A stretch of 64,000 nucleotides of DNA, taken from the NCBI GenBank assembly GCA_017619755.1, contig JAFZRU010000036.1, positions 1 to 64,000 on the forward strand. Reading direction: 5' to 3'. Positions within the stretch are counted from its first letter, which is position 1; the number at the start of each line of letters is the position of its first letter. Shown here one piece after another: positions 45,866-54,724 of the stretch. The translations under genes were made by a program, and so were the position numbers. Below the pieces are notes generated by a model that searched no databases, was not told the origin of the DNA, and saw nothing but the letters and a program-made list of their open reading frames with translations. The DNA is from Prevotella sp. GTDB taxonomy: Bacteria; Bacteroidota; Bacteroidia; Bacteroidales; Bacteroidaceae.

Positions 45866-45948
45866 ACACATAACGCATAACACAGAAACCTGAAAACAAG
45901 AAAAACTGCTGACGCAAATATTAAAGCCACCGTATAAGCCACAAAAAA

Positions 45949-45969
45949 TTGCTAAACAATGTTTAGCAA
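45949..45969. promoter_or_regulatory. Perfect palindrome, candidate operator
   Basis: TTGCTAAAC-AAT-GTTTAGCAA, 9-bp arms with a 3-base loop, 11 bases before the left arm of the large inverted repeat. It has the size of a dimeric regulator site and no T-run after it. Function unknown. Confidence 0.5.
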
Positions 45970-45979
45970 AAGCAGTCTA

Positions 45980-46250
45980 TCTCTTCGAGAGAGATGGATT
46001 TCGGTACAAATATACACATTTTTGTTGAAAATCCGCAATTTCATCTTAAAAAAACAAGTTTTTGGTTGACATTTCGGTCTTATTTGTCGTAAAATGACTT
46101 TTTTCCTAATTCGTCATTAATTTTGAAACATACGCAAAAAGTCCGAATTTTTGATTTTTTCCTAAACAGATTTTATAAAAATGTACAGTAGGAGATTCTA
46201 ACCATTTTTATATCATCGACTTAAAATTTTATCCATCTCTCTCGAAGAGA
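45980..46250. repeat. 271-bp AT-rich segment bounded by 20-bp perfect inverted repeats
   Basis: Bases 45980-45999 (TCTCTTCGAGAGAGATGGAT) and 46231-46250 are exact reverse complements. Each arm can itself form a small hairpin (TCTCT-TCG-AGAGA). The 231 bp between them are very AT-rich, rich in T-runs and hold no reading frame. No target-site duplication flanks the ends. It lies 120 bp before the PLD-helicase gene; either a small non-autonomous element or a regulatory structure would fit. The remaining gap (46251-46370) shows no consensus promoter. Confidence 0.8.
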
Positions 46251-46370
46251 CGAATAAATTCTCTGTATTTCCAGAGTACCAACAATCAATCCAAAGTTCC
46301 ATCATCTTGCAGTGAAAAAAGTTATGATTCATCCACAAGTCGCCGCATAAAAACACACAATATCTTTCAA

Positions 46371-49300
46371 ATGGCAAGAATATACGACAATATTGAAGTG
46401 AAGTTCACCGAAGGTCTTCAAGGCATCATCACCAATGTAGGTGTGAAGCGAGTTGACTTTTGTGTAGGCTATTTCAACATTCGGGGTTGGAGACTTGTAG
46501 TCAATCCCATTAACGACATCCCAGGTGACTACGTTTATGAGGGTAGTGAGCAGAAATTCCGCTGCTGCCGTCTTCTTATTGGTATGCATCAACCCAACCG
46601 CGAGTTGGTTCGTCTCCTTTATTCAGAACATACGCCCCCCGATTCCAGCTATGCCCGCCAATGCAAATTGGCCATCGCTCGTGACTTCAAGCAACAGTTA
46701 CTGATAGGCTTGCCCACGAAAGAAGATGAATGGACTTTGCGCCGCCTGTCAGCACAATTGAAAGAAGACAAGGTTTGCGTGAAACTCTACGTGGCTGAAC
46801 CCCTCCATGCCAAGCTTTACCTTGCTCATCGGCCTAATGACAATTGGAATAAGATTCAAACCATCATGGGCAGCAGCAACCTCACCTACTCCGGCTTGAC
46901 CCACCAAGGTGAATTGAATGCGGAGTTTAGCGATAGTGACAATGCCCGGAAACTCGCCGACTGGTTCGACGACCGTTGGAACGACCGTTTCTGCATAGAC
47001 ATCACCAAGGAATTGATTGATGCAATAGACAACAGTTGGGCGGGAGAACAAATCATCCCCCCATATTACATCTACCTGAAAGCAGCCTATCATCTTTCAG
47101 CCGAAGCCCGCTCTGGTATCAAAGAGTTCACCCTTGACCCCCAATTTCAACACGAGCTGTTTGATTTCCAACAGAATGCGGTGAAGATAGCCGCCCGCCA
47201 CTTGAACAACGACAAGCGTGGTGGAGCCATGATAGGAGACGTGGTGGGATTGGGAAAGACCATCACCGCCTGTGCCATCGCCAAGATTTATGAGATGACC
47301 TTTGCCAGCAGCACACTCATCATCTGCCCTGCCAACCTACAAGAGATGTGGGACAAATACCGCAAGCGTTATGACTTGAAGGCCGACATCATCTCCATGG
47401 CAAAACATATCGATGTGGACAGCGCACGCTTCTACCGCCTCGTCATCGTGGACGAAAGCCACAACCTACGCAACTCCTCTGGAAAGCGCTATCAAAATAT
47501 CAAGTCGCTCATTGAGCACCAAGACTGCAAAGTGCTGCTGCTCACCGCCACCCCCTACAACAAAGACTTCTCCGACCTTGCCTCACAACTACGTCTTTTC
47601 ATTGGCGAAGATGATGACCTCGGCATCCGCCCGGAGGCATACATCCGCGACCTTGGTGGCGAGCGAGCTTTCCTGCAAAAGCACAGTGAGGTCTTCATCA
47701 GGAGCATCAAGGCTTTCGAGAAAAGCCCGTTCCCCGACGACTGGATGGATTTGATGAAACTCTTCCTTGTGCGTCGAACACGGACGTTCATCAAGGAGAA
47801 CTACGCGAAGACAGATCCGAAGAATGGCAGGAAATACCTGGAGTTCAGGGATGGTCGCCGCAACTATTTCCCTGACCGGGAACCCAAGGCCATCAAGTTC
47901 AAAACAGTGGATGGCGACCAATACAGTCGTCTCTATAGTAAGGAAATGGTGGATATGATGGGCGACTTACAACTGCCCCGCTATGGGTTGTCAAAATATG
48001 AAAACCCCGATGCCACGACCAATGCCCCGAGAGCCGACAAACAACTGTTGGAAAACCTCTCCCGAGCCGGACTGCGTATGATGGGTTTCTGCAAAAGCAC
48101 CTTCTTCAAGCGTATTGACAGCAGCGGCTTCGCCTTCCTGCTGACCCTCTACCGGCACATCCTGAGAAACGCCGTCTTCATACATGCCATCGACCACAAA
48201 CTGCCCTTGCCCATCGGCGACGAAAACAACCTGCCCGACACCTTCATTGAGGACGAGGACATCAACGACATCTTCGACCACGACAACGACGAGGAAGACC
48301 GCATGGGAGGTGACGGGCTGATTGAGATCCCCACCGATATGAAAGTCTACATGGAGAAAGCGCAAGCCTATTACGACATCCTCAGCGAGAAAAACAACGT
48401 GGCGTGGATCAACTCCACCTATTTCAAACGCTCGCTCAAAACTCACCTCAAACAAGACTGCCAAAAACTGATACAAATGATTGAGCTCTGTGGAAAATGG
48501 AACCCCTCCACCGACCAGAAACTCAACGAACTGCAGGACCTGCTCAACAATCAACATGGCAGTGAGAAAGTGTTGGTGTTCACACAATATTCCGACACCG
48601 CCAACTACATCTACCGACAGTTGCGCAAGAGAGGCTTTCAACAATTAGAACGCGCCACCGGTGCCAGTGTCAATCCCACAGACATTGTGGAACGCTTCTC
48701 ACCAAAATCCAACAACGCCCAAGTACAAGGAAAGGAACTACGCATCCTCGTGGCCACCGACGTACTGTCGGAAGGACAAAACCTGCAAGACAGCCACGTC
48801 ATCGTGAACTACGACCTGCCATGGGCCATCATCCGCCTCATACAAAGGGCCGGGCGTGTGGACCGCATCGGACAGCAAGCGGAGAAAATCTTCTGCTACT
48901 CCTTCTTCCCCGCAGAAAAGGTGGAGGAAATCATCAACCTGCGCAAGCGACTCAACGAGCGAATCAACCAAAACGCGAGCATCGTGGGAAGCGACGAGGT
49001 TTTCTTCGAAGGCAACGAGAAAAACCTACGTGACATGTACAACGAGAAAAGTGGTGTACTCGACGACGAGGAAGACACCGACGTGGACCTGGCTTCCATG
49101 GCCTATCAAATATGGAAGAATGCCACCGATGCCAATCCCAAGCTCAAGAAAATCATTCCTGAACTTCCCGATGTCATCTATTCCACCAAGCGTGCCACCG
49201 ACAACATGCACGATGGCGTGGTGACCTATCTCAAAACCTACAACGACTTCGACATTCTCACTTGGTGCAACTCCAAAGGAGAGGTCATCAGTCAGTCGCA

Positions 49301-49775
49301 AAAGAAAATTCTGCAAGCCCTCGCTTGCAGTGCAGACGAGCCGGCACTGCCACCCCTCGACAACCATTTTGAATTGGTGAAAAACGCCGTGGAAAGCAGC
49401 AAGCAAGAGGACACCGGGGTCAGCGGCATCCTCGGCAACCGCTTCAGCACACGATACCGCATCATCGACCTCTTGGAGCATTACTACAACCAGCCCCCCA
49501 CCCTCTTCTTTTCAGAAGAGCAACGCCAACAACTCAAACTGGCCATCGACGACATCTACAACTATCAGTTTGTAGAAAGCAGCAAGAACATCCTCGGAAG
49601 GATGCTCCGCATATCAGAAAACGACGATATTGTAGAAACCGTGCTGGAGATGAGAAAGAACGGCACACTTTGCCGCATCGACAAAGAAAAAAGTGAGCAC
49701 AAAGACCCCACCATCATCTGCTCCATGGGAATGGCATACAAAAACGACAATCAAGAAACCAACAATCAGCCATGA
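46371..49775 (+). CDS. PLD-like nuclease fused to SNF2-type superfamily 2 helicase
   Basis: Protein of 1134 residues. Residues 1-205 are a phospholipase-D-like domain with one HxK motif (PLHAKLYLAH, His146/Lys148) followed by GSSNLTYSGL, the arrangement of PLD-type nucleases. Residues 260-560 are the first helicase lobe: Walker A GDVVGLGKT (289-297), DESH box (361-364) and LLLTATPYNK. The second lobe has VLVFTQYSDTANYI, ILVATDVLSEGQNLQ and LIQRAGRVDRIGQQ. A C-terminal tail of about 250 residues is unassigned. By family it should translocate on DNA and possibly cut it. The stop overlaps the methyltransferase start (ATGA). Related fusions occur beside adenine methyltransferases in defence islands. 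Confidence 0.88.
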   Translation: MARIYDNIEVKFTEGLQGIITNVGVKRVDFCVGYFNIRGWRLVVNPINDIPGDYVYEGSEQKFRCCRLLIGMHQPNRELVRLLYSEHTPPDSSYARQCKLAIARDFKQQLLIGLPTKEDEWTLRRLSAQLKEDKVCVKLYVAEPLHAKLYLAHRPNDNWNKIQTIMGSSNLTYSGLTHQGELNAEFSDSDNARKLADWFDDRWNDRFCIDITKELIDAIDNSWAGEQIIPPYYIYLKAAYHLSAEARSGIKEFTLDPQFQHELFDFQQNAVKIAARHLNNDKRGGAMIGDVVGLGKTITACAIAKIYEMTFASSTLIICPANLQEMWDKYRKRYDLKADIISMAKHIDVDSARFYRLVIVDESHNLRNSSGKRYQNIKSLIEHQDCKVLLLTATPYNKDFSDLASQLRLFIGEDDDLGIRPEAYIRDLGGERAFLQKHSEVFIRSIKAFEKSPFPDDWMDLMKLFLVRRTRTFIKENYAKTDPKNGRKYLEFRDGRRNYFPDREPKAIKFKTVDGDQYSRLYSKEMVDMMGDLQLPRYGLSKYENPDATTNAPRADKQLLENLSRAGLRMMGFCKSTFFKRIDSSGFAFLLTLYRHILRNAVFIHAIDHKLPLPIGDENNLPDTFIEDEDINDIFDHDNDEEDRMGGDGLIEIPTDMKVYMEKAQAYYDILSEKNNVAWINSTYFKRSLKTHLKQDCQKLIQMIELCGKWNPSTDQKLNELQDLLNNQHGSEKVLVFTQYSDTANYIYRQLRKRGFQQLERATGASVNPTDIVERFSPKSNNAQVQGKELRILVATDVLSEGQNLQDSHVIVNYDLPWAIIRLIQRAGRVDRIGQQAEKIFCYSFFPAEKVEEIINLRKRLNERINQNASIVGSDEVFFEGNEKNLRDMYNEKSGVLDDEEDTDVDLASMAYQIWKNATDANPKLKKIIPELPDVIYSTKRATDNMHDGVVTYLKTYNDFDILTWCNSKGEVISQSQKKILQALACSADEPALPPLDNHFELVKNAVESSKQEDTGVSGILGNRFSTRYRIIDLLEHYYNQPPTLFFSEEQRQQLKLAIDDIYNYQFVESSKNILGRMLRISENDDIVETVLEMRKNGTLCRIDKEKSEHKDPTIICSMGMAYKNDNQETNNQP

Positions 49776-52700
49776 TGAATAAACGAATTTTCATTCAACA
49801 CATTTCTAATGCCTCTTTCAAGGAACTATTCATCCGGGAAATGGGATGGGACAACACAAAGGGGCAGACACACTTCGACCTCGACATAGAGGGCGTAACG
49901 TTTCAATTCTCACAAATAGCAGTTAGAAGCGGCTTCCAAGTACTAACATGCCAAGTGGAGAAAATACCTACTTCATCAACCGCCAAAAAGATAGACACCA
50001 GACTGAGGAGGCAGGCCAATGACTATATATGTATTTTCCACAAACCGGGAAGCGAACACCACCTCTGGGTGGTACCAGTGAAAAAGGTGGAGAAACGTGA
50101 CTTGGTACTTGTGGAGTACAAGACAGCGGAGAAAGCACAATTCCTCTTGGAAAAAATGGACAATTTCACCTTCGCCATTGACGAGACGACCACTATCATG
50201 GACGTGAAGGAGCGGGTGCAAGGTGCCTTCATCATCAACTCCGACAAAATCACAAGCGATTTCTACAAAGGCTTCAGAAAAGAGCATGCCAACTTTGCCA
50301 AGTTCATTTCAGGCATTGAAGACAATGTGGAGTTGAAGAAAAACAGAAACAAACAATGGTATGCTTCTGTCATGCTCAACCGCCTCATGTTCTGCTATTT
50401 CATCCAAAAGAAAGGTTTCCTCGCCTTAAACAACAACTACCTGAGAGAGAAATTGGAACAGGTAAGGAAAGAGCAGGGCAAAGGAAAATTTTACACCTTT
50501 TATAAAGGGTTCCTCATCAGCCTCTTCCACGACGGCCTCAACTCACCAAGGCATAACCCGGACTTTATGAGAAAGTATGGTCGAATACCATACCTCAACG
50601 GGGGGATGTTCGACATCCACGAACTGGAAAGCCGCTTCCCTAACATTGACATCCAAGATGAAGCCTTCATCAGCCTCTTCACTTTCTTCGACCAATGGCA
50701 CTGGCACCTCGACGACAGGCTCACAGCTTCGGGAAAGGACATCAACCCCGACGTGTTGGGATACATCTTCGAGCAGTATATCAACGATCGGGCACAAATG
50801 GGGGCTTACTACACCAAGGAGGACATTACGGAATACATAGGAAGAAATACCATCGTGCCGTTCCTCATGGACGCCACCAAGAAAGCAGACGAAAAACCAT
50901 TCCTTGCCGATGGTGCAGTGTGGCTATTCCTACAGCAGAGTGGAGACCGATACATCTTCGATGCCGTGAAGAAAGGGCACGACATACCCATACCAGACGA
51001 CATCGCCATAGGCATCGACACCACAAAACCGAACCTATTAGAACGTAGAAGCAGATGGAACGAGCGGACTCCTGAGAAATGGGCTCTGCCAACAGAGATT
51101 TGGAGGGAAACGGTGGAAAGGTTGCAGCGATACAGCGACATCAAAGCGAAAATTGAGCATGGGGAAATCTGCGAGGTGAATGACTTCATCACATACAACC
51201 TTGACATACGGCAGTTTGTTCAAGACTTCCTCGCCACCACCGATGACCATCGCTTCGTTTTGCATTTCTATCACGCCCTACAGCAAATCACTATCCTCGA
51301 CCCCACTTGTGGCTCGGGAGCCTTCCTTTTTGCAGCTCTCAATATACTGGAGCCTCTATATGAAACGTGTATCACCAGAATGCAGGACTGGCAAGCCAGC
51401 AATCCCAATCTCTTCAAAAACGAATTGCAAGAACTCAATGTGAAATACCGCTCCAACATCAGGTATTTCATCTACAAAAGCATTATCCTTCGCAACCTAT
51501 ACGGAGTGGATATCATGGTGGAGGCAACGGAAATTGCCAAGCTACGCCTCTTCCTCAAAATGGTGGCTGTGGTGGATGTGGACGAACGTGACAGCAACCT
51601 CGGATTAGAGCCACTGCCCGATATCGATTTCAACATCAGATGCGGAAACACGCTCGTAGGGTATGCCACAAGAGCAGAATTGGATAAAGACTTGGTGGAA
51701 GGGGATATGTTTGAAAAGCAAGAGTTCGAACAAAAAGTAAATGACAAATGCTTAATTGTAGCCAAAGCATTCAACATCTTCAAACAGGTACAACTGACAC
51801 AAACACCCAATTTGGAGACATACAAACAGGCAAAGAAGGAACTGAAAAATACATTGAAAGAACTCAATGACTTGCTCAATAAAAAAATGTATTCACAAGT
51901 AACTGCTAAAACATACCAAGAGTGGTTCAGTTCACACCAACCTTTCCACTGGTTTGCGGAATATTATGACATCATTCAAGGAAATGGGGGATTTGATGTG
52001 ATTATTGGGAATCCACCGTATGTTGAGTATAATAAAAAGGTTAATGGCGTTGCTGTCTCTGACATATACAAGATACATGGTTATAGAACGATTGAATGTG
52101 GGAATCTTTATGCTTATTGTATTGAAAGGAGTAAAACCATTTTAAATATCAATGGAAAGTATGGTATGATTGTTCCAATTTCTTCTGTAACAACTCCACG
52201 AATGAACAAACTTACTAATATGCTTTCTCGTGGTATATGGTTTTCTTTCTACGACTTTAGACCAGGACATTTATTTGATGGGGTTAATCTTCGCCTCTGT
52301 ATCTTCGTAGGAAATATCAGAACAAATGAAATCTATTCAACAAAATATAACCGATGGTATTCGCAAAATAGATATAACCTTTTCAATCTTTTAATGTATA
52401 CATCTTCTTTTATTAAGGATGATAGTTGCCTCAAATTATCTCATACAATTGAATCCTCCATCTATAATAAAATAGTTGGTAATCGTTCTCGCTTTTCACT
52501 TAAAAGCAAGTTCATTCTTTATTACCATGATGCAATCCTATATTGGCTAAGAGGTACCGATTTCGAACCATCATTTGAAGGATATTTATCTTCTCATGTT
52601 AAAACTGTTTGTTTTGCCGATAGGAAAGATTTGTCATCCGCAATCTGTTTATTTAATTCGAGTCTATTTTATTGGTTTTGGACCCTTTCATCTAATTGTA

Positions 52701-52999
52701 GAGACCTTGGATTTGATATGTTTTACAAAATAAAGCCATTATTATATAGTGACAAATCTAATAGACTGGTTAATTCTCTTATGAATGACTTTGTCAGAAA
52801 TAGTCTTATAAAAGAAAGGAATCAGAAACTTACAGGAATTGTCAAGTATCGAGAATTTTATCCTGTAAAGTCCAAACCCATTATCGATGAAATTGACAAA
52901 GTGCTTGCTTGCCACTACGGCTTAACAGAAGAGGAATTAGACTTCATTATCAATTACGACATCAAGTATCGTATGGGAGATGAGTTGAATGAAAAATAA
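49772..52999 (+). CDS. Eco57I-like N6-adenine DNA methyltransferase (type IIG/PglX-like)
   Basis: Protein of 1075 residues. SAM motif I is DPTCGSGAFLFAAL (about residue 509) and the catalytic motif IV is IIGNPPYVEY (about residue 747). The long N-terminal half (1-480) has no visible PD-ExK or other nuclease motif. The target-recognition half (about 760-1075) is encoded by strikingly AT-rich DNA (roughly 51985-52900) compared with the rest of the gene, as expected if recognition domains are swapped by transfer. It is co-translated with the PLD-helicase. By family it methylates adenine in a specific site, probably marking host DNA. Fused cutting activity cannot be excluded. Confidence 0.9.
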   Translation: MMNKRIFIQHISNASFKELFIREMGWDNTKGQTHFDLDIEGVTFQFSQIAVRSGFQVLTCQVEKIPTSSTAKKIDTRLRRQANDYICIFHKPGSEHHLWVVPVKKVEKRDLVLVEYKTAEKAQFLLEKMDNFTFAIDETTTIMDVKERVQGAFIINSDKITSDFYKGFRKEHANFAKFISGIEDNVELKKNRNKQWYASVMLNRLMFCYFIQKKGFLALNNNYLREKLEQVRKEQGKGKFYTFYKGFLISLFHDGLNSPRHNPDFMRKYGRIPYLNGGMFDIHELESRFPNIDIQDEAFISLFTFFDQWHWHLDDRLTASGKDINPDVLGYIFEQYINDRAQMGAYYTKEDITEYIGRNTIVPFLMDATKKADEKPFLADGAVWLFLQQSGDRYIFDAVKKGHDIPIPDDIAIGIDTTKPNLLERRSRWNERTPEKWALPTEIWRETVERLQRYSDIKAKIEHGEICEVNDFITYNLDIRQFVQDFLATTDDHRFVLHFYHALQQITILDPTCGSGAFLFAALNILEPLYETCITRMQDWQASNPNLFKNELQELNVKYRSNIRYFIYKSIILRNLYGVDIMVEATEIAKLRLFLKMVAVVDVDERDSNLGLEPLPDIDFNIRCGNTLVGYATRAELDKDLVEGDMFEKQEFEQKVNDKCLIVAKAFNIFKQVQLTQTPNLETYKQAKKELKNTLKELNDLLNKKMYSQVTAKTYQEWFSSHQPFHWFAEYYDIIQGNGGFDVIIGNPPYVEYNKKVNGVAVSDIYKIHGYRTIECGNLYAYCIERSKTILNINGKYGMIVPISSVTTPRMNKLTNMLSRGIWFSFYDFRPGHLFDGVNLRLCIFVGNIRTNEIYSTKYNRWYSQNRYNLFNLLMYTSSFIKDDSCLKLSHTIESSIYNKIVGNRSRFSLKSKFILYYHDAILYWLRGTDFEPSFEGYLSSHVKTVCFADRKDLSSAICLFNSSLFYWFWTLSSNCRDLGFDMFYKIKPLLYSDKSNRLVNSLMNDFVRNSLIKERNQKLTGIVKYREFYPVKSKPIIDEIDKVLACHYGLTEEELDFIINYDIKYRMGDELNEK

Positions 53000-53015
53000 C
53001 TAAAATCCAAAAATT

Positions 53016-53681
53016 ATGTCGAAGTTAGAGAAACTTTACAGTATCATTGACAACTCTCGCGAGGTAGGTGTTCGTCTTAACGAGGATGTTCTGCGTCAAG
53101 TGGAAGAGTTGGAAGAGGGCATCATCAAGGAGGAAATATTGCCAGCCTTGGGAAATGACATTGCCCCACGCTTGGAGCCTATCAAGCGAGACTTGGTATT
53201 GGTGGTGGAATATCATCCTGGAGAGCCTATCCGGGTTGCTCTGAGCCGTAAAGCCAAGATTAGCGAGATTATTGACGCCAAAACACTGACCCCTCGAAGC
53301 AGCACACCTGTAAAAAGCGATGAAGAGCCTGTCGTTGCTGAGCCCCATACTCCAACAAAACATGTACAAAACACTACCAAGGGAATGCGGGTTACATTTC
53401 CTGATGGTACGGTAATTTGGCGTCGTGCAGCCATTGACACATTCATTGATGCACTTAGGAAAATCGGTTTGGAACGCATACCCCAAGTGGGAAGAATACA
53501 TTCCGGATACAATCTTGTTGGAAAGGTAAAGCGCCCTCCCGAACCAGGAAGGATATGGCAGCACGAATGCGACGGATGGTTTATCTACTCCAACATCAGC
53601 AATCCCACCAAGGCGGATGACTTGAAACTCATTTCTGATTACTACCATCTATCTTTGAAGATAGAAGAGGGCAAGCCCTAA
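53016..53681 (+). CDS. Uncharacterised protein of the methyltransferase operon
   Basis: Protein of 221 residues, not assigned to a named family. The N-terminal part (1-90) is charged and partly helical (LNEDVLRQVEELEEGIIKEE), with EPIRVALSRKAK. A Ser/Thr/Pro-rich linker (about 90-120) follows. The C-terminal domain (about 122-218) runs MRVTFPDGTVIWRRAAIDTF, then IGLERIPQVGRIHSGYNLVG and WQHECDGWFIYSNIS. From memory of the group, similar C-terminal domains accompany restriction-modification genes in gut Bacteroidetes; this needs a profile search. It is 16 bp after the methyltransferase and 7 bp before the DprA-like gene, so it is very likely part of the system. Confidence 0.75.
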   Translation: MSKLEKLYSIIDNSREVGVRLNEDVLRQVEELEEGIIKEEILPALGNDIAPRLEPIKRDLVLVVEYHPGEPIRVALSRKAKISEIIDAKTLTPRSSTPVKSDEEPVVAEPHTPTKHVQNTTKGMRVTFPDGTVIWRRAAIDTFIDALRKIGLERIPQVGRIHSGYNLVGKVKRPPEPGRIWQHECDGWFIYSNISNPTKADDLKLISDYYHLSLKIEEGKP

Positions 53682-53688
53682 TAAAAAG

Positions 53689-54144
53689 ATGTCTCAGGTC
53701 TCTTACCTTGGCAATCAATCCTTGCTCTCCTTGCCGAAAACGGCCTTTTTGGCATCGAACACCATCCCCTTGGAGATGGTGCTTCGATGCTATGACTGGG
53801 CAGTGATGATGCGCGACGCGGGTCGTTGCGTGGTGAGTGGTTTCAGCAGCCGCTTGGAACGCGATGTTTGGGACTTTTTAGTCAGTGGCAATCAGCCTAT
53901 CATCTTGGTGCTGGCACGTGGGATGTATCGGCGTGTTCCGACCTCATTGGAGCCGTTGCTCAAATCTGGTCGTTTGTTGGTAATCAGCACCACCTTGTCG
54001 CCACGTCAGTCGCGAGCCACTGCCTTTACCCGCAACAAATACATCTGTGAGTTGGCGGACGACATTCTCTTTGTCGGAGCGGACGAAAATAGTTCTCTTC
54101 ATCCTTTGCTGGTGGCATATTCGGGAAAGGCCATCGTATGGTAG
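53689..54144 (+). CDS. Stand-alone DprA/Smf-like SLOG-fold protein
   Basis: Protein of 151 residues that aligns by eye with the Rossmann core of DprA. CVVSGFSSRLERDVWDFL stands for the DprA word VVSGxARGIDxxAH, PIILVLARGMYRRVP for the AVLGxGxDxxYP region, and FTRNKYICELADDILFVGA for the RNRIISGLSDxxLVVEA motif. The SAM-like N-terminal and winged-helix C-terminal domains of true DprA are absent, so a role in transformation is unlikely. SLOG proteins are proposed to sense or make nucleotide-derived signals, and DprA binds single-stranded DNA; either would fit a sensor or effector. Its stop is TAG, so TAG is a genuine stop in this genome. Confidence 0.8.
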   Translation: MSQVSYLGNQSLLSLPKTAFLASNTIPLEMVLRCYDWAVMMRDAGRCVVSGFSSRLERDVWDFLVSGNQPIILVLARGMYRRVPTSLEPLLKSGRLLVISTTLSPRQSRATAFTRNKYICELADDILFVGADENSSLHPLLVAYSGKAIVW

Positions 54145-54374
54145 TTTCTCATTGATGTTAGTGGCACTCTGACGACATCAATTCTGTTCCTATTGACACA
54201 GCATCTTGGCATTAGGATAGGTTCTCAAATCTTTCGACACAATCATAAAACCAACGATGAAATTGAAAGTATCTGAAAACGTTAGACTAACTCATAACGA
54301 CAGATTCCTTTCAGCATCCGAAATGTCAAGATAACATTCCTTTTTCCCGCCTTCAGGCGTTTTCCAAAGCGTCC

Positions 54375-54724
54375 AGCGTTTCAGATTATTAGCAGACGAA
54401 AAATATCTTGCTGTACGGATGAAAACGGCCTGAAAGGCCAAAAGCAATCAGCCCAGGGCAACGCCCTGGGGAAGAGGGTGAGCCAGTTATCGCCCTGACA
54501 GGGCAAAAGCCTTACAGATGTCATAATGCTTTTGACCCGTCAGGGCGCAATCTACTCCGTTATTTATCATTTACCCAGGGCGTTGCCCTGGGCTGGTATC
54601 TCATTGGCCTTGCAGGCCGTCTTTGCACAAAATCCATCAGCACAGGACGGAAATTTTTATTACTTTTTTTCCACGCCCTTGGGCGTTATTATCAAGCGGT
54701 GAGCGTTTCAGATCATTCGCAGAC
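54375..54724. repeat. 23-bp imperfect direct repeats flanking palindromic copy B
   Basis: Bases 54375-54397 and 54702-54724 match at 21 of 23 positions (both begin AGCGTTTCAGAT and end GCAGAC). Weaker similarity extends upstream of each (CGCC..GGCGTT). They bracket the palindromic element at 54412-54643. Confidence 0.6.
54412..54643. repeat. Large palindromic intergenic element, copy B
   Basis: Diverged copy of 15161-15400. It has the same order: GATGAAAACGGCCTGAAAGG, CAGCCCAGGGCAACGCCCTG, a GCCCTGACAGGGCAAAAGC / GCTTTTGACCCGTCAGGGC pair, CCCAGGGCGTTGCCCTGGGC, and the closing GGCC-GCAGGCCGT. The outer arms are less perfect here. It fills part of the 906-bp gap after the DprA-like gene. Confidence 0.82.

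Follow-up and report, generated by a model that had tools for sequence, protein, structure and literature searches.

The locus and its shared unit

A 64,000-nucleotide stretch of a Prevotella sp. contig (JAFZRU010000036.1; hereafter the window) carries four tightly packed genes, termed g1 to g4, that are the subject of this analysis. The sequence evidence supports a defence core based on DNA modification and distinct from both DISARM and BREX, encoded by g1 and g2 and followed by two small proteins, one with a SeqA-like domain (g3) and one resembling DprA (g4). The window represents most of a 66-kb contig in a genome of 3.7 Mb and 67 contigs, and the genes lie within it as follows:

45923 to 54144, + strand: unit common to the window and the relative locus L077 (g1 to g4 plus an upstream region), with unrelated flanks
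46371 to 49775, + strand: g1, 1134 aa; putative N-terminal PLD (HxK...GSSN) nuclease domain, SNF2/SF2 ATPase, C-terminal extension
49772 to 52999, + strand: g2, 1075 aa; Eco57I/type IIG-like adenine methyltransferase, N-terminus without a conserved nuclease motif
53016 to 53681, + strand: g3, 221 aa; portable two-domain protein with helical N-terminus, disordered linker and C-terminal domain
53689 to 54144, + strand: g4, 151 aa; short DprA-like protein, regular last gene of this g1-g2 lineage

A sequence-only reading of this DNA had described four open reading frames (ORFs) on one strand, and ORF calling reproduced both their coordinates and their spacing: g1 and g2 overlap by 4 bases, with gaps of 16 bases between g2 and g3 and 7 between g3 and g4, all on the + strand. 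The arrangement is more than chance, because the whole 8.2-kb unit recurs in L077 at 86-88% nucleotide identity between different flanks. The match stops at the g4 stop codon and its only hole lies within g2 (52036-52866); the proteins are 96% (g1), 76% (g2), 95% (g3) and 87% (g4) identical. The unit also takes in an upstream part (45923-46370), overlooked in the earlier reading, that contains a perfect 20-bp inverted repeat. A four-gene operon acting as a single fixed system was rejected: in this lineage the recurring set is g1, g2 and g4, with g3 as an optional member.

The core proteins, g1 and g2

Profile scans covered the four unit proteins, and the ORFs flanking the unit were read by eye. 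The scans returned family matches for g1, g2 and g4 and none for g3. Several features of the core proteins stand out:

46806 to 46880, + strand: g1 PLD motif HAK...GSSN (H[AS]K in 36 of 37 g1 rows, GSSN in all 37)
47241 to 47261, + strand: g1 Walker A motif VVGLGKT, kept in 37 of 37 rows
52010 to 52021, + strand: g2 NPPY motif, in 37 of 37 rows
52036 to 52866, + strand: g2 exchanged region, probable target-recognition domain (22-47% identity to L077, at least 89% before it)

The fusion of a PLD-HKD domain to an SNF2-type helicase, recognized from the outset, is borne out by Pfam matches of g1 to PLDc_2 (E 2.7e-10), SNF2-rel_dom and Helicase_C. A DE[AS]H motif is also kept in all 37 aligned loci, and the sole row lacking H[AS]K is a shortened ORF (L139). 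Against DrmD models g1 scores 124 bits in PADLOC and 153 bits in NCBIfam, and against the PLD_Helicase anti-phage protein NF042964 it reaches 151.8 bits, below the curated cut-off of 1100.

The second protein matches Eco57I (E 2.3e-24, Pfam) and fits the PADLOC type IIG model PDLC03628 over residues 8-1073 (883 bits), with further partial matches to DrmMI and PglX models; the earlier assignment as an Eco57I-like adenine methyltransferase overlapping g1 thus stands. Between the window and L077, g2 protein identity is 89% or higher as far as about residue 750, falls to 22-47% over residues 750-1050 and returns to 88% in the last 25. An equally sharp drop in the same part is seen in 6 of 8 locus pairs, and g2 drops there too in the window-L064 and L151-L155 pairs, but these are already less alike before it. 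Positions 52036-52866 are probably an exchanged target-recognition domain, and g2 thereby has the type IIG trait of an exchangeable recognition region behind its methyltransferase motifs. The idea that g2 alone could serve as a type IIG nuclease was rejected, no nuclease motif being conserved in its first 140 residues (21 rows). Since none of the positions conserved there in 90% of 21 clade-A proteins is acidic or lysine, the nuclease of the system is most likely the PLD domain of g1.

A short DprA-like partner

The minimal DprA-like character of the fourth gene was recovered by matches to DNA_processg_A, below its cut-off (E 1.5e-5), and to PADLOC PsyrA (8.5e-10). All 18 g4 proteins scanned match PsyrA, and 6 of them match ShosA. 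In most loci g4 is about 130-185 aa long, as against 318-445 aa in the dprA controls. A profile search of the Protein Data Bank (PDB) with g4 gave no solved chain at E <=1, and a search of PHROGs gave nothing at E 0.1.

What sets g4 within this locus is its position: it is a conserved partner of this g1-g2 core. Sixteen of 301 genomes of the family were positive in a search with g1 (E <=1e-100), and wherever the contig continues past g2 (11 of the 16) g4 follows downstream, either directly or behind up to several intervening genes. In the remaining five, contig ends interrupt g1 or g2, or the locus is spread over more than one contig; for G077, g4 sits on the contig that holds the end of g2 (L199). 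Among 344 genomes of the order, g1 was found in 10, at 11 places; three of the contigs stop inside g2 or no more than about 125 bases from it, and g4 is present at 7 of the remaining 8 places, the exception being L285. Both samples include the genomes G000 and G005. One locus found through g3 (L110) is also without g4. Searches with g4 itself were positive in 42 of the 301 family genomes (E 1e-3, full-length DprA included), in 22 of the 344 from the order (E 1e-8) and in 13 of 296 from the phylum (E 1e-15).

Restriction genes are encoded upstream of g4, on its own strand, at 14 of 17 loci from the family, 7 of 13 from the order and 4 of 6 from the phylum, and at 0 of 10 full-length dprA controls (one of which has a Fic gene upstream), counts taken outside the window itself, after dropping loci with less than 6 kb upstream or no g4 ORF (family 5/22, order 4/17, phylum 5/11, control 2/12). 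The family regions were picked with g1 positions in view, and the query set, built from types already met, can miss other restriction genes. Relatives of g1-g2 account for 21 of the 25 g4 loci with restriction genes; the other cores are HsdM and HsdS (L201, L202), HsdM, HsdS and HsdR (L235), and type III Mod and Res (L203). At ten of these 25 loci the region upstream of g4 also contains an AlbA_2, RhuM, Fic, DUF1016, DUF4062 or OLD-like gene; for DUF1016 and DUF4062, and for part of the AlbA_2 and Fic genes, the label came from visual inspection or from BLAST against a labelled relative rather than from Pfam. On one viral-collection contig (L292, 5995-8142) g4 is followed by an HsdR-like ORF.

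In four clade-A loci (L191, L193, L194, L197) no ORF of at least 85 aa lies between g1, g2 and g4, so g4 needs no separate effector; the earlier suggestion that the last two genes trigger an effector step found no support.

A portable protein with a SeqA-like domain

The third protein, left unassigned in the sequence-only reading, has no match at E <=0.1 in Pfam, PADLOC, NCBIfam or PHROGs. The best NCBIfam line is Hhe (0.28), and the sole Pfam line at E <=1 is RAD51_interact (0.18), with no match to Pfam SeqA. Its C-terminal part is another matter:

53376 to 53669, + strand: g3 C-terminal domain, similar to the SeqA DNA-binding domain

The similarity to SeqA spans 91 residues, by profile and, more tentatively, by fold, and the hhalign score between the two profiles is 32.4, compared with a maximum of 23.0 in 100 column shuffles, 15.2 for the reversed profile and 11.3 for g4. 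A PDB sequence search with the g3 profile gave only triosephosphate isomerases and DBL6 at E >=0.64, and no SeqA. The N-terminal half yielded weak rows only (CAF1 4.0, AriA 3.6), which were not interpreted.

A passage of PMC6225831 lists Arg116, Thr117, Arg118, Asn150 and Asn152 as the residues through which SeqA contacts GATC. Across 57 g3 rows the place of Asn150 holds N in 31 and H in 24, that of Asn152 holds S in 39 and N in 14, and the Arg contacts are not visibly kept. Like E. coli SeqA, g3 is predicted to combine an N-terminal oligomerisation part, a flexible linker and a C-terminal DNA-binding domain; unlike SeqA, it escapes the Pfam model, keeps the contact residues only in part, and sits in Bacteroidales restriction loci. 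It is because of the SeqA-like domain that a role in reading adenine methylation is suggested for g3.

Relatives of g3 with named records are almost all from Bacteroidales, many of them Prevotellaceae. Three g3 loci (L096, L106, L120) lie in genomes labelled Lachnospiraceae or Clostridiales, perhaps as misbinned Bacteroidales contigs. In a distant g1-g2 lineage g3 is the regular last gene, and one member of that lineage (L240; g1 26% and g2 48% identical to the L136 queries) has g4. Among 101 locus pairs with g3 at least 70% identical, 37 have g1 below 40%, and by these comparisons g3 moves between different restriction cores. The approximately unbiased (AU) test bearing on this exchange relied on a rapidly built tree that includes one long branch (L064), with a group defined in advance from g1. 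The C-terminal domain was also found fused to McrB-like AAA_5 and to GmrSD proteins, and some g3 loci contain TIR, SIR2, AbiGi or DUF2971 genes. Some g3 and some g4 loci show no restriction gene. The survey comprised 83 g3 loci, one without a labelled g3 (likely L085, with g3 at a contig end) and 23 of the other 82 with less than 8 kb upstream. In the separate scan that showed L110 to be without g4, queries had come from three of the five positive loci themselves (L118, L127, L128) and from part of L157. In one count behind the g3 results, genomes reached by two search routes were counted twice (e.g. L057 and L099).

Several variations on g3 were seen in passing. Seven loci (L078, L079, L081, L083, L091, L092, L101) have a 107-122-aa protein consisting of the g3 C-domain only between g2 and g3, as if a second reader. 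The g3 of L117 shares its N-terminal half with that of L080 (96-100% over the first 100 residues) and differs in its C-terminal half, as if the reader domain had been exchanged. A 1857-aa protein in L054 (4559-10129) has AlbA_2 mid-chain and the g3 C-domain at its end, with no NCBIfam match at E 0.01. In L049, which belongs to the window's own genome (G000:C29), and in L046, two distant relatives of g3 (199-261 aa) stand in tandem behind large ORFs. Gene strings common to different genomes follow g3 in L137 and L141 (c84-c85) and in L155 and L156 (c94-c100), and have the look of mobile cargo blocks.

The upstream inverted repeat and the flanks

The upstream part of the unit contains the following elements:

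45980 to 45999, + strand: left arm of a perfect 20-bp inverted repeat upstream of g1, in the same place in L077
46066 to 46095, + strand: weak sigma-70-like promoter match inside the repeat (TTGACA-18-TAAAAT, 11/12)
46231 to 46250, - strand: right arm of the repeat, with 231 nt between the arms

Allowing up to 1 mismatch, no second pair of such arms occurs in the genome to which the window belongs. In L077 the arms are 207 nt apart and two bases have changed alike on both, suggesting that their complementarity is maintained, as it is in invertible promoters. The promoter match is weak, since scanning finds 18 sites in the region against a mean of 13.8 in shuffles. Any arm of at least 15 bp occurs in only 6 of 63 regions upstream of g1. 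The window and L077 share one orientation of the inner segment, giving no sign of inversion between them, and the two recombinase families searched, Phage_integrase and Resolvase, have no match on the contig. The element is a candidate invertible promoter switch.

Outside the shared unit, the noncoding stretch after g4 (54367-54724) holds a 25-bp inverted repeat (54449-54473 / 54571-54595, 96%) and a 31-bp direct repeat (54367 and 54694, 84%). An empty insertion site was sought through the downstream response regulator; 15 of 40 genus genomes match it, the window's own included, and no other exceeds 66% identity. A tRNA integration site was discarded, the sole two tRNAs of the window lying at 11.4-11.6 kb, away from the unit.

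Proposed mechanism and its alternatives

On balance, the locus is somewhat better explained than not as an ATP-dependent restriction-modification system made of two proteins and accompanied by two small accessory ones, g3 as a methyl-adenine reader and g4 as a conserved partner. The g2 protein would recognise a DNA site through its exchangeable target-recognition region and methylate adenine at N6. By analogy with SauUSI and the type ISP enzymes, g1 would be loaded at unmodified sites as a PLD nuclease on an SNF2 motor, translocate, and cut. That the methyltransferase marks self and the helicase-nuclease attacks unmarked DNA had been proposed earlier, and with the kept motifs and the exchanged specificity region it remains the best reading.

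Eco57I-related and type ISP enzymes often mark one strand only, and replication leaves one daughter unmarked, so a reader of half-marked DNA would be useful. As a reader of methylated or hemimethylated adenine, with a helical, probably oligomerising N-terminus joined through a flexible linker to a SeqA-like DNA-binding domain, g3 most likely signals freshly replicated, half-marked self DNA, and would either shield it or license effectors on loss of the mark. What is observed for g3 is the similarity in profile and, more tentatively, in fold, and the association with restriction loci; methyl-adenine binding and its consequence are inferred. The conserved position and family of g4 are observed; its probable role is to sense single-stranded DNA or a nucleotide where DNA is damaged or infected, and to tune restriction accordingly. 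Parts of PMC9122126 propose a DprA-like protein as a phage-DNA sensor and report DprA homologues as antitoxins.

The distribution of g3 is uneven: it is present in only 2 of the 11 assessable g1-selected family loci (the window and L064), yet regular behind the distant g1-g2 lineage. The sequence-only reading had allowed that the last two genes might be unrelated passengers. The neighbourhood survey removes this for g4, which co-occurs with g1-g2 as the regular last gene (11/11 family, 7/8 order), and leaves it partly standing for g3.

SeqA and Dam-dependent switches read methylation at promoters, and g3 could likewise be an epigenetic regulator of the locus or its cargo, making expression phase-variable together with the inverted-repeat region. 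The SeqA-like domain, the promoter-like match inside a repeat whose arm changes are mirrored in L077, and the movement of g3 between cores, as a regulator could move, all fit. We consider it unlikely: most loci have no repeat of that size, the inner segment has the same orientation in both genomes, neither of the two recombinase families searched has a match on the contig, and the fusions to AAA_5 and GmrSD proteins suggest action on target DNA.

It is similarly doubtful that g4 is a DprA-type antitoxin or trigger of abortive infection, as in PsyrTA, ShosTA and DprA-PRTase, releasing toxicity once g1-g2 detect a phage. The PsyrA and ShosA matches, the antitoxin role reported for DprA-like proteins and the TIR, SIR2, AbiGi and DUF2971 genes of some g3 loci speak for it, against the four g1-g2-g4 loci without another intervening ORF and the failure to recognise a PRTase or RecQ-like partner among the scanned proteins beside g4.

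That g3 and g4 are cargo gathering at the ends of restriction loci, with no functional link to the core, is quite improbable. Free swapping of g3 and the loci without restriction genes would be expected of cargo, but g4 is near-constant in g1-selected loci and follows PLD-SNF2, type I and type III loci, full-length dprA does not share this context, the g3 C-domain is fused to restriction-type proteins, and the L077 unit ends exactly at the g4 stop codon. Least probable is a DISARM- or BREX-like block of phage DNA without cutting, in which the PLD domain is not a nuclease: the DrmD scores of g1 and the partial DrmMI and PglX matches of g2 point that way, but the four-gene unit has no drmA, drmB, pglZ, brxC or DUF499 gene, all but one of the 37 g1 rows retain the PLD motif, and g2 fits the type IIG model at full length.

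Two open problems, most acute where an enzyme marks a single strand, are how restriction systems spare newly replicated self DNA and how they connect to back-up suicide effectors. Extending the proposed restriction-modification system beyond this locus, we tentatively raise the possibility of a portable Bacteroidota kit, in which SeqA-like readers (g3, also fused to AAA_5 or GmrSD) and minimal DprA-like proteins acting as sensors (g4) attach to restriction cores of unrelated kinds and couple the core's methyl mark, at the replication fork or on its loss, to restraint of self-cutting and to exchangeable abortive effectors (TIR, SIR2, AbiGi). If true, a SeqA-like reader shuffled between restriction loci would be a direct, testable answer to self-sparing, and SeqA-type recognition would extend from replication control to immunity and to another phylum.

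Comparison with known systems

The nearest systems are the type-2 BREX-related systems, type ISP enzymes, SauUSI and DISARM, and none fits in full. Among the titles and abstract openings listed by searches of the open-access literature there was no recognised description of this gene set or of a SeqA-like domain in restriction loci. Type-2 BREX-related systems, as a section of PMC12839542 describes them, have an HKD nuclease N-terminal on a Swi2/Snf2 helicase and an N6-methyltransferase, with DUF499 and DUF3780. The window unit shares the HKD-Snf2 fusion and the methyltransferase; unlike those systems it has no DUF499 ATPase or DUF3780 gene, there being no such match in the four proteins and no further gene in the unit.

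Type ISP enzymes, such as LlaBIII and LlaGI, are single polypeptides with nuclease, motor, methyltransferase and recognition domain. PMC7049714 describes nuclease, SF2 motor, methyltransferase and target-recognition domains cooperating in this class. The window unit is predicted to have the same four functions; unlike type ISP it splits them over two genes, uses a putative PLD nuclease, and adds g3 and g4. The nuclease of SauUSI is PLD, and we know of no methyltransferase partner for it. An extract of PMC7913695 presents SauUSI as an ATP-dependent nuclease with a translocating helicase-like ATPase, dimeric through its nuclease domains, that targets methylated sites. On that account SauUSI itself recognises methylated targets, whereas g1 adjoins a methyltransferase gene.

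DISARM is defined by drmA and drmB with drmC, and its class 1 gene set includes DrmD, DrmMI and DrmC. An SNF2 helicase, an adenine methyltransferase and a PLD protein are common to both; unlike DISARM, the window unit has no drmA or drmB, and its PLD domain is fused to the helicase. In the four-protein scans only the helicase part of g1 touches DrmA/DrmD models. BREX is defined by pglZ and brxC, both absent from the unit, which has only the partial PglX match of g2. The absence of drmA, drmB, pglZ and brxC noted earlier thus holds throughout the shared unit, and the operon equals none of these named systems in full. Type IIG enzymes join nuclease and methyltransferase in one chain, with an exchangeable recognition region after the methyltransferase motifs; g2 has no conserved N-terminal nuclease motif despite its near end-to-end model fit.

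In PsyrTA and ShosTA a toxin partner, a PRTase or a RecQ-like helicase, lies beside the DprA-like gene; here the only other unit genes are g1 to g3, with no such partner. The g4 protein shares the DprA Pfam domain and the PsyrA model with PsyrA, ShosA and DprA, some of its relatives also matching ShosA, and differs in being shorter than the dprA controls and in lying at the end of restriction loci. Its association places short DprA-like proteins in a restriction context, and relative to known systems it is the reader domain of g3 that makes this locus interesting.

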